Shown here: positions 7,692 through 60,789 of the stretch, in pieces | How the letters are laid out: every line of letters starts with the position of its first letter | Numbering within the stretch: position 1 is the stretch's first letter | NCBI GenBank assembly: GCA_013140575.1 | Contig: JABFSN010000058.1 | Coordinates: 1 to 64,000 of the forward strand | Source of the DNA: Phycisphaerales bacterium | GTDB lineage: Bacteria > Planctomycetota > Phycisphaerae > UBA1845 | DNA length: 64,000 nt | Direction: 5' to 3' | Program-made: the position numbers and the translations under genes | Notes under the pieces: generated by a model | The model's input: only the letters and a program-made list of their open reading frames with translations | Databases searched by the model: none | Told to the model about the DNA's origin: nothing

Positions 7692-8477
7692 CTACAGCGG
7701 TCCGCTAATCCCGCCGTCCTTGCGGATCCGCCAAAAATGAACCGCAATCAGAATCGTCGCGACCACCGGGATGAACACGCAATGCAGCACGTAAAACCGC
7801 AGCAACGCGTTCGGTCCCACAAACGTCCCGGCCAACAATCCGAATCGGGCGTCGTCGCCCGCGTGCACCAGCGGAACGCCGCCTATGTTGACCAGGCTGG
7901 CCAGCGGCCCTTCGTACCCCAACAACGGCGTCGCCCGGGCCATGTTCGATCCCACCGTGATCGCCCACATTGCCAACTGGTCCCACGGCAACAAATAGCC
8001 CGTGAACGACAACAGCAGCGTCAACACCATCAGAATGACGCCCACGCCCCAGTTAAACTCCCGCGGCGGTTTGTAGCTCCCCGTCAGGAACACGCGCAGC
8101 ATGTGCAGCCAGATGGCGATGACCATGGCGTGCGCCCCCCACCGGTGCAGCTCGCGCAGCAGTCCCAGCGTGACGTACGCCCGCAACCCTTCAATATCGA
8201 AATAGGCATACTCCACGGTGGGGCGATAATAGAACATCAGCAGCACGCCGGTGACCACCTCCACCAAGTACAGGAAAAACGTCAGTCCCCCCATGCACCA
8301 GGTGAACGACAGCCGGATCCCGCTCTTCCGCACCGCCACCGGGTGCAGATGCAGAAACACGTTGCTCAATACGGCCATCGCCCGCGTGCGCCGGTCACGC
8401 GGCACCCCGTGCCGGAACACGCTGCCCCACACCTGCCCTTCGCGGACCCAATTACCGAATCGCCCGAATACGCTCAT
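7692..8477 (-). CDS. Cytochrome b, N-terminal half (b6-like, dihaem)
   Basis: Core membrane subunit carrying the two b haems. The haem ligands appear as two His pairs, in [15 protein letters not shown] and [16 protein letters not shown], each with the b6-type spacing. [16 protein letters not shown] and the terminal GISGPL match cytochrome b6 closely. Cys61 in TWCMGG aligns with the b6 cysteine that covalently binds the extra haem ci (cn), so that haem is probably present (family knowledge plus alignment by eye). Start ATG 8477 gives [10 protein letters not shown]; the upstream extension to 8549 is encoded by a dispersed repeat and is rejected. Confidence 0.9.
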
Positions 8478-8496
8478 CGATGGAATTACCTGTCCG

Positions 8497-8548
8497 CTGG
8501 TGCGAGAATCCTTTGTCGCACCCTTTTCCGCGGGAATCCCTTCCCGCA
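8497..8548. repeat. Double-hairpin dispersed repeat, copy 1
   Basis: A stretch of about 52 bases nearly identical to 13316-13367. Both copies contain two consecutive palindromes, one built on gcgagaa...ttctcgc (diverged here) and one on gcgggaatcccttcccgc. This copy sits between the Rieske and b6-like genes of the respiratory operon, so it would be transcribed and could fold in the mRNA. Confidence 0.75.
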
Positions 8549-8685: not shown

Positions 8686-9780
8686 TTACACTTCCACGAA
8701 ACTCTCCGCGCTCTCCCACTGCCCCTTCTCATACTGGTACTTCTTGCTTTTATCCACCACCACGAACCCGTCCACCACCTCAATCCGGAATCGCTCCAGC
8801 GGACGCGGCGCCGGCCCCTCGAAATTGATCCCCGCTTGGCGGAACCCGCTCCCGTGGCACGGGCACTTGAACTTCCGATCGTTCGCCAGCCAGTTGGGAA
8901 TGCACCCCAGATGCGTGCAAATTATGTTCAACGCCGCAATCCGATCTTCCAGGCGAATGATCCAGAACCCGTCCGGCTTGTGATCGTTGTTGACTTCGCC
9001 CGGCGGCATGGCCGCGTACACCTCCAGCTTCCCGATTCGCACCCGCGGGTCCGGCTCTTCCAACACGTTGGGCATCATGAACCGCTGGAACGCCACTGCC
9101 GACACCACGGACGCCCCCCCGAACGCCAGCCAGCCGATCCCCAACGCCGACCCGGTCAACACGCCCCGCCGCGTCACTCCGTCCTTCGTCTCCCCGCTGG
9201 CCTTCAAGACCTTCGCCTGACGCGCGTCCGGCGGCAATTCCGACGCCGGGGCCTTCTCCCACATCTTGGCCGTCGGACCCGACTCCGCGTCCGTCTTTCC
9301 GATGACCGCCATTCCCCCGCGCGACGTGGCCGCGCGTAACAATGCCTGAATGGCCGGGTCTGGTTCGCCCGCCACGGATACCGTCGGCGCCTTTTCCGGC
9401 GACTTTGCCGCAGCCTTGCCCGATTCCTTCGCGGCCGCCGCGGGCTTGTGCGGCGCCTTCTTCACGGCTGCGGTGGCCGGCTCATCCGCGTCGGCCTTGG
9501 CCGCCGCCTTTTCTTCCTTCGCCGCCGCGGGCGTCGCAGTCGCCGCCGGCGCTTCGCCCATGACGACCTCGAACTTGATCACGTCGACCGGGCACTCCTC
9601 GGCCGCCTCTTTGATCTCCGCGGTCAGCGGCCGGGTGAATTCCGCGTTGAGCGCATCCGGACGGATCACGCAGGTGTCGTCCGTCACGTGAAATACCGTC
9701 GGCGCCGCGTTCTCGCATGCATCGCAAACGATGCAGCCAGGTTCGATCCACACCCGCGTGACCAGTTCCGCCGTCGCCAT
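8686..9780 (-). CDS. Ferredoxin-Rieske fusion protein
   Basis: Iron-sulfur subunit of the bc complex. Residues ~10-72 form a one-cluster ferredoxin domain (CIVCDACEN, then a final Cys in EECPVDVIKF). An Ala/Lys/Pro-rich linker follows (~73-190). Then comes a twin-arginine-like RRGVLTGSALGIGWLAFGG membrane anchor (~200-225) and a Rieske domain with CTHLGC and CPCHGSGF, the 2Fe-2S ligands and disulfide cysteines. In this topology the ferredoxin would sit in the cytoplasm and the Rieske head in the periplasm, a combination ordinary Rieske proteins lack. ATG 9780 has an AGAGGCGG ribosome site. Confidence 0.88.
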   Translation of the reverse strand: MATAELVTRVWIEPGCIVCDACENAAPTVFHVTDDTCVIRPDALNAEFTRPLTAEIKEAAEECPVDVIKFEVVMGEAPAATATPAAAKEEKAAAKADADEPATAAVKKAPHKPAAAAKESGKAAAKSPEKAPTVSVAGEPDPAIQALLRAATSRGGMAVIGKTDAESGPTAKMWEKAPASELPPDARQAKVLKASGETKDGVTRRGVLTGSALGIGWLAFGGASVVSAVAFQRFMMPNVLEEPDPRVRIGKLEVYAAMPPGEVNNDHKPDGFWIIRLEDRIAALNIICTHLGCIPNWLANDRKFKCPCHGSGFRQAGINFEGPAPRPLERFRIEVVDGFVVVDKSKKYQYEKGQWESAESFVEV

Positions 9781-13267: not shown

Positions 13268-13315
13268 ATGAGCGATCGGACCGAGGTCATCGTGATCGGC
13301 GGCGGCGTGGCAACG
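13268..13315 (+). pseudogene. Duplicate 5' fragment of thiO cut off by a repeat
   Basis: ATG 13268 opens a frame reading MSDRTEVIVIGGGVA, the start of an FAD-binding Rossmann fold. It is nearly the same as the ThiO start (MSIRADAIVIGGGVV) 118 bases downstream, and the DNA shares a long run around atcggcggcggcgtgg. The frame then runs straight into the dispersed repeat at 13316 and loses similarity. It looks like an older or duplicated thiO 5' end displaced by insertion of the repeat. Confidence 0.5.
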
Positions 13316-13367
13316 CTGGTGCGAGAATCCTTTCTCGCTCCCCCTCTTGCGGGAATCCCTTCCCGCG
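13316..13367. repeat. Double-hairpin dispersed repeat, copy 2
   Basis: Matches 8497-8548 over its full length with only scattered differences. Two hairpins are intact here (gcgagaatcctttctcgc and gcgggaatcccttcccgc). It lies between the truncated thiO-like fragment and the thiO start and supplies 5' untranslated sequence to thiO. Confidence 0.75.
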
Positions 13368-44220: not shown

Positions 44221-44315
44221 GCCGGTCTGCCGCCCCGCTGGGGCTTCGATGTCGGCGGAGATGGCACCGGGGGCTGACGCCCCCGGCTATTGACTGTCGC
44301 CCCTTCGGGGCTGGC
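44221..44315. repeat. Palindromic dispersed repeat upstream of nuoA
   Basis: Three GC-rich hairpins: gccccgctggggc, ccgggggctgacgcccccgg (44267-44286, perfect) and gccccttcggggc. A second copy at 55399-55497 has the same central palindrome and the same order, with compensatory changes in the outer hairpins (gcccctacggggc, gcccctccggggc). In this copy it is noncoding, between nuoI and nuoA. Confidence 0.8.
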
Positions 44316-44377: not shown

Positions 44378-44875
44378 ATGGACGTGGAGCAGGACATGCT
44401 GGCGCAGGTGGTGCGGGGGGAGACGAACATCGAGCTGGTGATCGGCGTGCTGCTGTTCATCATCGCTGGTTTTTTCATGGCGTTCTCGGCGCTGGTGGTC
44501 GGGCGATTTGTGCGGCCCACGATTCGGCACCCGGAGAAGGCGGCGGTGTACGAGTGCGGCGAGCCGGCCGTCGGGGAGAGCTGGGTGCAGTTCGATCTGC
44601 GGTTCTACGTGGTGGCGCTGCTGTTCATCATATTCGACGTGGAGATTGCGTTGTTCTGGCCGTGGGCGGTGGTGTTCGGATCGGCGGACGCGGCGACGGC
44701 GGGGGGCAGGGCGATCAAGACGGTGGCGTTGTACGACATGTTGTTCTTTTTCGGCGTGGTGGTGGTCGGGTTCCTGTATCTGTGGCGGTTCGGCTATCTG
44801 GACTGGGTGAAGGCGGCGACCGGGCAGTCGCGGCGTCGGAGCGCGGTGTCGGAAACGACGGCGGCGGCAGTCTGA
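44378..44875 (+). CDS. nuoA: NADH-quinone oxidoreductase subunit A
   Basis: Small membrane subunit with three helices. The conserved loop KAAVYECGEPAVGESWVQFD with its Cys, then LRFYVVALLFIIFDVEIALF, are diagnostic. 165 residues; the C-terminal tail is extended (SRRRSAVSETTAAAV). Confidence 0.95.
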   Translation: MDVEQDMLAQVVRGETNIELVIGVLLFIIAGFFMAFSALVVGRFVRPTIRHPEKAAVYECGEPAVGESWVQFDLRFYVVALLFIIFDVEIALFWPWAVVFGSADAATAGGRAIKTVALYDMLFFFGVVVVGFLYLWRFGYLDWVKAATGQSRRRSAVSETTAAAV

Positions 44876-53883: not shown

Positions 53884-56496
53884 ATGGAATCGTATAGCAA
53901 CTACGAAATCTATCTGATGACCGGGACGATGATCCCGTTCGTCAGTTTCGTGATCCTGATGCTGTTCGGGCATCGGCTGGGCAAGCCGCTGTCCGGATGG
54001 GTGACCGTGGCGGCCATGGCGTCGAGTTGCGCGCTGGCGACGATGACGCTGGTCGGGTGGATGGGCGAAATCGACGGCGGCACGTCGGCGGGGCTGACCG
54101 CGGCGGCGCAACTGAATCAGGTCACCTGGGCGCACCTGGGTTCGATTCCGCTGAATGTCGGCGTCAAGCTCGATTCGCTGACGGTCGTCATGTATTTCAT
54201 GGTCACGTTCGTGGCCACGTGGATATTCGTGTTCAGCGTCGGGTATATGGCCGGTCACAGCGACGAAGTGGACGGTCAGTCGAAATACCACCGGTTTTTC
54301 TGCTACCTGTCGCTGTTCGGGTTCAGCATGTTGGGGCTGTTGTGCAGCAGCAGCCTGCTGTTTCTGTTCGTTTTCTGGGAATTGGTGGGGCTGTGCAGTT
54401 ACCTGCTGATCGGGTTTTATTTCGACCGCAAATACGCGTCCAATGCGGCCATCAAGGCGTTCGTCACCAACCGCGTGGGGGATTTCGGGTTTCTGTTCGG
54501 CCTGATGATGGTGGCGTTCTTTTTGGGGACGTTTGACCTGGAACAGGCGGCGGCACGCTTCGCCGAGCAGTATCAATCACACATCGGTCTGTTCGCCGGG
54601 GACATGACCATCGACCTGCTGGGATGGGAAATCAGCGGCGGCATGGTGGCCACCATGATGGGCATCGGGTTGTTCTGCGGGGCGATGGGCAAGAGCGCCC
54701 AATTCCCGCTGCACGTCTGGCTGCCGGATGCCATGGCCGGTCCGACACCGGTGAGCGCGTTGATTCACGCGGCCACGATGGTCGCGGCCGGGGTTTATTT
54801 GGTAGCGCGGGTGTTCCGATTGCTAACGCCGGACGCACAGATGTTCATCGCCATTATCGGGGCGATCACGCTGACGCTGATGGCACTGATCGCCATCGTG
54901 CAGGTGGACATTAAGAAATGCCTGGCGTATTCGACGCTGTCGCAACTGGGCTACATGATATTTGGAATGGGCTGCGGGGCGTGGATCGCGGCGTTGTTCC
55001 ATCTGATGACGCACGCGTTTTTCAAGGCCATGCTGTTCCTGTGTTCGGGGCAGGTCATCGAGGGCTGCCACCACGAGCAGGACATGCGGAAGATGGGCGG
55101 GCTGATCCGGAAGATGCCGGTGACGGCGTTCACATTCCTGATCGGCGTGCTGGCGATCGCGGGGTTCGGGATTCCGTTGGCGGGCATCGGACTGGGCGGT
55201 TATTTCAGCAAGGACGAGATACTGGCCGTCGCGTGGGACCGGGCGTTCCTGTGGGGCGAGCCGTTGGAACATCACGGCGACGGTCACGCGGACAGTACGA
55301 CCGACGACGCCCCAGATTCCATGACCCACACCGGGCCGCAAGCAATTCGACTGGTTTCGCGTCACGCTCACGTTTTCGGTTGGAACGGGGGAGTGATTGC
55401 CGGCGCGTCTGCCGCCCCTACGGGGCTTGTTGAGTTTGGGCGACGGGACCGGGGGCTGACGCCCCCGGCTATTGACTACCGCCCCTCCGGGGCTAGCCAA
55501 GATCGAGATACTAGCCGAGATCGAGATGCTAGCCGAGGTCGAGACACTCAAGGAGCACCTGCGGGATTCGCGTTGGCGTCCGATCCGCAGCCTGACGAAC
55601 ACGGGGCGGCGCACGACGCCGGCGGCGGCGAGCATCACCCGGCGGCCGGTGCGTGGCAGCGCAGCGGCGGCGACCGGCTGTGGCGGGTATTGTTCTGGTG
55701 CGCGCTGGCGACGGCGTACGTCACGCCGTTCTACATGATGCGGGCGTGGTGGATGACGTTCATGGGCAAGCCGCGGGACGAACACGTTTACCACCACGCC
55801 CACGAATCGCCGTTGATGTGGTTCCCGCTGGTGGTGCTGGCCGTTTTTACGTTTGTCTCGAGCTATTGGCTGTTTCGCCCGCTGATCGCCGACGCGGCAC
55901 CGACTGCGTCCGGCGGGATTCTGGTAGCCGGTTACGACGGCGTGGCCGATGACGCCGCGGCCGCGGCGGGCCAGCTGATTCACGTTCACGAGGCCCATCA
56001 TTGGCTGGCGTACGGCGTAGGCGGATCGTGGCTGATCGCGTTCATCGCGGCCATCGCCATTTATCGCGGTGGACTGGCGTTGCCGACGCGATTGAAAGCG
56101 GCGTTCGGCCCGATCGCAACGCTGCTGGAACGCAAGTACTATTTCGACGAAGTGTATGGTCTCGTTTTCGTGAAGGGCTGCGTGGCGTTCGCGCATGTCT
56201 GCCGGTTTGTGGACACGTACATTGTGGACATGTTCGCCAATCTGCTGGCGCGCATGACCGAACGGCTGGCGAATTTTTCGGGCAACGGCGTGGACGCCCG
56301 GGTCGTGGACGGGGTGTTCAACGGCATTGCGGTGACGTCGTTCGATATTTCCGACATGTTTCGCAGTCCGCAGACGGGGCGCATTCGCAACTACGTCCTG
56401 TTCGCAGCGGGCGGCGCGGCGCTGATTGTGTTGTTTTTGATTGTCATGGCGAGTCTGTCGGCCGGTCCGGTGGCGGTGGCGTCGACCGGCGGCTGA
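53884..56496 (+). CDS. nuoL: NADH-quinone oxidoreductase subunit L with repeat-derived insert
   Basis: Antiporter-like proton-pumping membrane subunit, about 16 helices. LVGLCSYLLIGFY, LHVWLPDAMAGPTPVSALIH and GCHHEQDMRKMGGL are diagnostic. At 870 residues it is much longer than the usual ~610. Most of the excess is a loop at ~460-598 between the YFSKDEILAVAWD region and ATAYVTPFYMMRAWW. Within the loop, a copy of the dispersed palindromic repeat and an 18-base tandem repeat are read in frame (GLTPPAIDYRPSGA and QDRDTSRDRDASRGRD). Confidence 0.93.
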   Translation: MESYSNYEIYLMTGTMIPFVSFVILMLFGHRLGKPLSGWVTVAAMASSCALATMTLVGWMGEIDGGTSAGLTAAAQLNQVTWAHLGSIPLNVGVKLDSLTVVMYFMVTFVATWIFVFSVGYMAGHSDEVDGQSKYHRFFCYLSLFGFSMLGLLCSSSLLFLFVFWELVGLCSYLLIGFYFDRKYASNAAIKAFVTNRVGDFGFLFGLMMVAFFLGTFDLEQAAARFAEQYQSHIGLFAGDMTIDLLGWEISGGMVATMMGIGLFCGAMGKSAQFPLHVWLPDAMAGPTPVSALIHAATMVAAGVYLVARVFRLLTPDAQMFIAIIGAITLTLMALIAIVQVDIKKCLAYSTLSQLGYMIFGMGCGAWIAALFHLMTHAFFKAMLFLCSGQVIEGCHHEQDMRKMGGLIRKMPVTAFTFLIGVLAIAGFGIPLAGIGLGGYFSKDEILAVAWDRAFLWGEPLEHHGDGHADSTTDDAPDSMTHTGPQAIRLVSRHAHVFGWNGGVIAGASAAPTGLVEFGRRDRGLTPPAIDYRPSGASQDRDTSRDRDASRGRDTQGAPAGFALASDPQPDEHGAAHDAGGGEHHPAAGAWQRSGGDRLWRVLFWCALATAYVTPFYMMRAWWMTFMGKPRDEHVYHHAHESPLMWFPLVVLAVFTFVSSYWLFRPLIADAAPTASGGILVAGYDGVADDAAAAAGQLIHVHEAHHWLAYGVGGSWLIAFIAAIAIYRGGLALPTRLKAAFGPIATLLERKYYFDEVYGLVFVKGCVAFAHVCRFVDTYIVDMFANLLARMTERLANFSGNGVDARVVDGVFNGIAVTSFDISDMFRSPQTGRIRNYVLFAAGGAALIVLFLIVMASLSAGPVAVASTGG
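55399..55497. repeat. Palindromic dispersed repeat inside nuoL
   Basis: Same element as 44221-44315: hairpins gcccctacggggc, ccgggggctgacgcccccgg (55449-55468) and gcccctccggggc. It contributes residues to NuoL without shifting the frame or adding a stop. Confidence 0.85.
55493..55546. repeat. 18-base tandem repeat, three copies, inside nuoL
   Basis: Units beginning ctagcc(a/g)ag(a/g)tcgaga start at 55493, 55511 and 55529. In the nuoL frame they read as Arg/Asp-rich hexapeptides. In another frame they read LAKIEI/LAEIEM/LAEVET, a heptad-like pattern. They directly adjoin the palindromic repeat. Confidence 0.8.
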
Positions 56497-60518: not shown

Positions 60519-60789
60519 CAGTGCATTGACTGGTATGTGTTTAGCGTCCCTTGGGGACGCTGTGAATGTAGCCCAGCACTTCAGTGCTGGGACGACGGCA
60601 CCGCCGGGAGCCCATAGTCCCGAAGGGACGGCTGAAGCGCTCCGTGGGGTTTCAGCCGTCCCTTCGGGACTAGGCGCCATGGCGTCTCGGGCATACCCCG
60701 CGTTGAAACGCGGGGCTACATTCAGTCCTGCCTGCGGCAGGCAACCCACGGAGACGCTAAACAAGTACATTGACCGCGTCAATGCACTG
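60519..60789. repeat. Nested inverted-repeat element in a 634-base gap
   Basis: Ends are inverted: cagtgcattgac (60519-60530) and gtcaatgcactg (60778-60789). Inside are further nested pairs: gtttagcgtc/gacgctaaac, gaatgtagccc (60564-60574) with gggctacattc (60713-60723), and a perfect 21-base hairpin arm pair (60616-60636 and 60651-60671). It occupies most of the gap between the ferritin-like gene and the zinc-finger gene. Confidence 0.75.

Follow-up and report, generated by a model that had tools for sequence, protein, structure and literature searches.

A dispersed three-hairpin palindrome read in frame in nuoL of a Phycisphaerales bacterium, a probable REP-like mobile DNA element in a tolerant loop

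How does a palindromic repeat come to be read as protein within the gene for a subunit of a respiratory complex? This question is raised by nuoL of a Phycisphaerales bacterium (assembly GCA_013140575.1), which lies in the 64,000-nucleotide stretch of DNA that we analyzed (hereafter, the window; see Table 1 for coordinates). The product of this gene carries the Pfam domains Proton_antipo_M (1.1e-76) and Proton_antipo_N and matches NuoL/NdhF structures in the PDB, and nuoM- and nuoN-like genes flank it; the letters given to the nuo genes were derived from Pfam domains and gene order. Judging by its conservation, the NuoL protein is probably functional. The source genome also holds a second NuoL-like gene (C51:6455-7498; a 661-aa open frame with 53% identity to nuoL), and because of this paralogue the "essential" status of the window's nuoL is unproven.

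Table 1. Positions of the nuoL insertion, its parts and the surrounding features in the window
Feature	Position	Strand	Remarks and basis
nuoL (complex I antiporter-like subunit L)	53884..56496	+	870 aa; gene that received the insertion
TM12-TM13 loop of NuoL	55250..55669	+	residues ~457-595; predicted disordered, hypervariable; AlphaFold2 pLDDT <50, alignments
Family-A palindromic element in nuoL	55399..55516	+, sense	outer limits approximate; per-column conservation over 52 copies
Hairpin H1, GCCCC-TAC-GGGGC	55413..55427	+	stem position approximate; sequence, DNA fold centroid
Hairpin H2, CCGGGGGC-TGAC-GCCCCCGG	55449..55468	+	sequence, DNA fold; stem invariant in family A
Hairpin H3, GCCCC-TCC-GGGGC	55481..55493	+	sequence, DNA fold; stem invariant in family A
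Core (H2+H3), match to Rfam RF01687 Acido-Lenti-1	55449..55494	+	54.1 bits; gathering cut-off 37
18-bp tandem repeat x 3.1 (CTAGCCGAGATCGAGATA)	55493..55548	+	Tandem Repeats Finder; overlaps the 3' tail of the element
Second family-A copy, noncoding, directly upstream of nuoA	44225..44315	+	RF01687, 57 bits
Family-B copy, same three-hairpin plan, downstream of the nuo cluster	60545..60591	-	RF01687, 33 bits, below cut-off
nuoA	44378-44875		Oxidored_q4
Other nuo cluster genes (starts)	nuoD 48758, nuoH 50076, nuoJ 51538, nuoM 56517, nuoN 58177

The original prediction, made from the sequence alone, was that a dispersed palindromic element lies in frame and stop-free within nuoL, lengthening a loop of the protein, and that a noncoding copy precedes nuoA. 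Our searches bore out both points. Using positions 55380-55560 as a query, blastn returned 40 places in the 5.05-Mb source genome, and a search with the Rfam model RF01687 gave 96 matches above the cut-off (153 in all). The nuoL copy (...ASAAPTGLVEFGRRDRGLTPPAIDYRPSGAS...) keeps the nuoL frame with no stop, it shares 79-88% DNA identity with dozens of noncoding genomic copies, and one such copy sits just upstream of nuoA. Relative to the core, conservation in copies of the same family (family A) reaches from about -50 to about +67, giving an element of ~117 bp with three hairpins, which folded as a single strand only modestly better than shuffled sequences (z -1.65). The preceding stretch (55270-55415) matches nothing else well in the source genome; it was rejected as part of the element, and the repeat in nuoL therefore has a real left edge. 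Since hairpins 1 to 3 of family-A elements leave on average 1.9 of the six frames open, the open frame is unremarkable on its own.

Two details fared less well. Compensatory changes had been thought to preserve the hairpins, but the nuoL copy differs from both the family consensus and the copy before nuoA at 3 of 46 core positions, and as all three changes fall outside the stems, this claim is unsupported. Stem pairs were near-invariant over 54 family-A copies, and covariation was seen only between repeat families (A, B, C, and D). An Arg/Asp-rich segment had likewise been ascribed to the element; such a stretch is indeed present in the loop (QDRDTSRDRDASRGRDT), but it is encoded by the separate 18-bp tandem repeat, which probably arose when the 3' tail of the element was amplified locally. 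An example of the peptide of the nuoL loop is GLTPPAIDYRPSGASQDR.

Genome-wide, the copies fall into two or more main families (A, GGGGGCTGACGCCCCC; B, CCCAGCACTGAAGTGCTGGG) plus the minor families C and D, all built on one shared plan. For 130 copies we examined the sequence up to 1.5 kb away on either side and judged their context by ORF extension and by eye, with no annotation, so the survey may have overlooked a few more copies inside genes. Two copies were clearly within genes, both in frame, and nearly all copies were intergenic (rough binomial versus 85% coding, p ~1e-102). Besides the nuoL copy, the second genic copy belongs to family B and lies antisense in a gene for a multi-TM protein with C-terminal TPRs (C58:33172-33218; L117 1082-3046), where it occupies a hydrophilic stretch between membrane segments; an apparent second repeat adjoins it, and ~65 residues are added. 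Two other candidates (C102 and C75:54267) were rejected as genic, since they lie upstream of likely start codons. A codon-usage score proved too weak alone to assign gene context, and the nuoL copy itself was not called by it. Across the class, RF01687 is patchy (52 of 150 genomes), as expected of mobile DNA.

The host segment of nuoL encodes a loop which, by the topology of E. coli NuoL, presumably faces the periplasm. Solved NuoL/NdhF proteins have ~9 residues separating the SKDEIL helix from the following one (query 452-606 corresponds to the interval between NdhF 425 and 435); in the window's NuoL, the same segment measures about 140-155 residues. AlphaFold2 (10-sequence alignment, mean pLDDT 60) predicted helices on either side and gave residues 457-595 a pLDDT of 23-32. 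The equivalent region in relatives from the same family and order spans 72-205 aa and shows little sequence conservation, and throughout the family relatives the loop is long, low-complexity, and His/Asp-rich. The longest loop region among the relatives examined (205 aa; G012 nuoL, L026 2806-3420) has no RF01687 match. When NuoL was aligned with relatives, L143-L151 lacked the peptide, which is thus not ordinary sequence of all homologues. We found no target-site consensus and no exact empty site in relatives, whose loops have diverged too far for the junction to be placed to the base. With 2 of 130 copies genic and a loop this variable and predicted to be disordered, the suggestion that the element is specially equipped to insert into essential genes without harm is overstated.

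Other palindromic repeats occupy the same loop in four relatives, three of them clear and one decayed. The nearest relative, Phycisphaerae bacterium OFTM321 (G015; 69% identity), carries two RF01687 copies in opposite orientations that belong to a different sequence family (CCCGGCGAT..ATCGCCGGG), of which dispersed copies occur in its genome. Likewise, the loop of OFTM285 (G029) holds a palindromic repeat of 81 nt whose dispersed copies reach 90% identity, and that of G016 holds the hairpin repeat CGCGGGCTGAAGCCCGCG, with dozens of dispersed copies; the repeat in G009 is a decayed candidate only. Thus, the loop repeatedly tolerates such insertions, and tolerance is the simplest reason for its repeated uptake of unrelated palindromes. 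Comparing the NuoL loops of 28 relatives with codon shuffles, we found hairpin enrichment that was suggestive for some but not significant overall.

Eight Y1_Tnp matches, including six strong Y1 genes, were detected in the source genome. One of these genes (C128:8285-8626) is flanked by inverted family-A RF01687 copies (8077-8122, minus strand; 8699-8744, plus strand), and three more have their own palindrome families on one or both sides, i.e., inverted family-D tandem arrays with a 72-bp period on both sides of the C212 gene (L127 1022-2184; CCCACGGC...GCCGTGGG), the CCAGGGAC family flanking the C123 gene, and family-C copies around the gene at C128:617. The other two strong Y1 genes (C42 and C80) had no clear RF01687-type flanks, and no transposase could be tied to family B, the second most abundant family. 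Elsewhere in the class, Y1 genes have inverted RF01687 copies on both sides in G184, G175 (two genes), and G031, and copies on at least one side in G159 and G104. By a rough estimate that allows for intergenic clustering, ~0.008 two-sided inverted cases are expected, versus the five observed. Translation of five flanked Y1 genes revealed the motifs DHVH, WQ, and YIxxQxxHH, and the C128 protein scored 69 bits against the NCBIfam IS200/IS605 model NF033573 (cut-off 55) and 22.5 bits against REP_Tyr_transpos NF047646, under the cut-off of 80. Because inverted copies flank Y1 genes, and different transposases are accompanied by different families, the best interpretation of RF01687 "Acido-Lenti-1" is a REP-like DNA element with a Y1 transposase subclass as its partner.

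These features resemble, without fully matching, those of several known systems. Like REP/REPIN/BIME sequences and their RAYTs, the elements are short, high-copy, intergenic palindromes (96 copies; 2 of 130 genic) that occur inverted around Y1 genes, particular transposases go with particular palindrome families, and occasional copies lie in frame inside genes; REPs in frame inside tnpA_REP genes have been reported (PMC6006769). In contrast to REPtrons, the transposases here are not TnpA_REP/RAYT proteins (class 2, with a Y motif ending in NP) but are IS200-like, with a Y---Q--HH arrangement (YIAGQAEHH), and the elements have three hairpins. The partner transposases instead carry the motifs of TnpA_Y1 subclass 1.2 (DH[IV]H, WQ, Y---Q--HH, ~148 aa), a subclass described as having no REP and generally no terminal secondary structures (PMC6006769), whereas palindromes flank the subclass-1.2-like genes found here. 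Class 3 TnpA_Y1 of Planctomycetes and Acidobacteria offers another likeness, i.e., the same phyla and high-copy, atypical hairpins flanking the transposase gene (~600 in Solibacter usitatus; PMC6006769). We rejected class 3 as the partner on its motifs (NHVH, W[TA], and YV[VI]xEQ, versus DHVH, WQ, and YIxxQxxHH here).

As for the in-frame position, palindromic repeats in frame inside genes are described for Rickettsia RPEs and for intragenic REPs of several species in PMC3733652, which also suggested flexible linkers or loops as tolerant sites. The RPEs, as covered there (Ogata et al.; Claverie and Ogata), are likewise dispersed palindromes read in frame, adding ~20-50 residues, but the likeness is one of in-frame behavior alone; compared with RPEs, the present elements have an apparently different sequence, a GC-rich three-hairpin plan, nearly all of their copies outside genes, and a visible Y1 transposase. 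The nuoL copy is an in-frame intragenic palindromic repeat of this general kind, and as such repeats are already known from RPEs and REPs, the nuoL case adds one more example to a recognized class of events. Within the open-licence literature that we searched, neither a link between RF01687 and a transposase nor palindromes tied to a subclass-1.2-like TnpA were found.

Taken together, we consider it probable (roughly 80%) that the insert is a non-autonomous, REP-like mobile DNA element, moved by a Y1 transposase and kept in a tolerant loop of NuoL. It would belong to one of several families of the same architecture, each apparently paired with its own IS200-like Y1 (HUH) transposase, which probably recognizes the hairpins as single-stranded DNA and moves the elements in trans. 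One copy may thus have entered the TM12-TM13 loop in a stop-free frame and been kept there, the loop being long, disordered, and variable enough for ~30-50 extra residues to be harmless; later slippage would have amplified the 18-bp unit at the 3' edge, and selection would have removed gene-breaking copies. Ordinary insertion plus selection against frame-breaking copies suffices here, and therefore no special in-frame mechanism is needed. Mobility, a Y1 transposase as mover, and neutrality for NuoL are the parts of this account that we infer.

Alternatively, the element might be a structured RNA that acts in trans or regulates in cis, the nuoL copy being an RNA gene or a functional hairpin of the mRNA that acts in processing or translation pausing. 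RF01687 is typed by Rfam as "Gene; sRNA" with 46 structured positions, its original authors considered it a probable RNA (PMC2864571), and mRNA processing could be influenced by a hairpin. The core indeed matches this model, yet its genomic behavior is that of mobile DNA rather than an sRNA: the ~100 near-identical copies within a single genome, the patchy distribution across the class, both orientations relative to nuoL in G015, inverted copies flanking transposase genes, and family-A stems without covariation all make this reading unlikely. We regard as somewhat less likely still that the insertion was selected for altering NuoL function beyond mere tolerance, e.g., by providing a charged periplasmic loop. 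The independent gain of palindromes in several lineages and the family-wide His/Asp richness would suit such a role, but the peptides vary by lineage in sequence, orientation, and length, many relatives lack them, and the region is predicted to be disordered.

Misjoining of a repeat into nuoL would be a natural concern in a metagenome-assembled draft of 268 contigs, dispersed repeats being a frequent cause of misassembly. However, NuoL continues in the same frame on both sides of the insert within one contig, which a chimeric join would not do, and palindromes, whether related or different, occur at this loop in independent genomes, making an artefact very improbable. Scarcely credible is the notion of an ordinary NuoL protein sequence in which hairpins arose by chance; every family relative does have a long, low-complexity loop, but the dispersed noncoding copies refute this notion, and L143-L151 lack the peptide.

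Thus favoring a mobile element, we find that nuoL offers a clear respiratory-complex example of mobile palindromes becoming protein by way of a disordered loop. Our data suggest that the Rfam sRNA family RF01687 should be re-described as mobile DNA, and they connect a transposase subclass that had lacked known DNA partners with specific hairpins that can be tested as its substrates, in Phycisphaerae and relatives within the class, lineages whose REP systems have hardly been described. On balance, though with less assurance than for the origin of the nuoL insert, we lean toward a broader reading, in which RF01687 is not an sRNA but a terminal palindrome, members of a Y1 subclass thought to lack REPs each keep their own three-hairpin family, and the NuoL loop is a repeated site, in several lineages, where palindromes become protein.

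The window contains a further dispersed repeat of 53 nt, present at 8495-8547 and 13314-13366 with 87% identity (GGTGCGAGAATCCTTT... and GCGGGAATCCCTTCCCGC, respectively), and a hairpin related to it, GGTGCGAGAAAGGATTCTCGCACC, was found near a Y1 transposase (L131 1239-1262).
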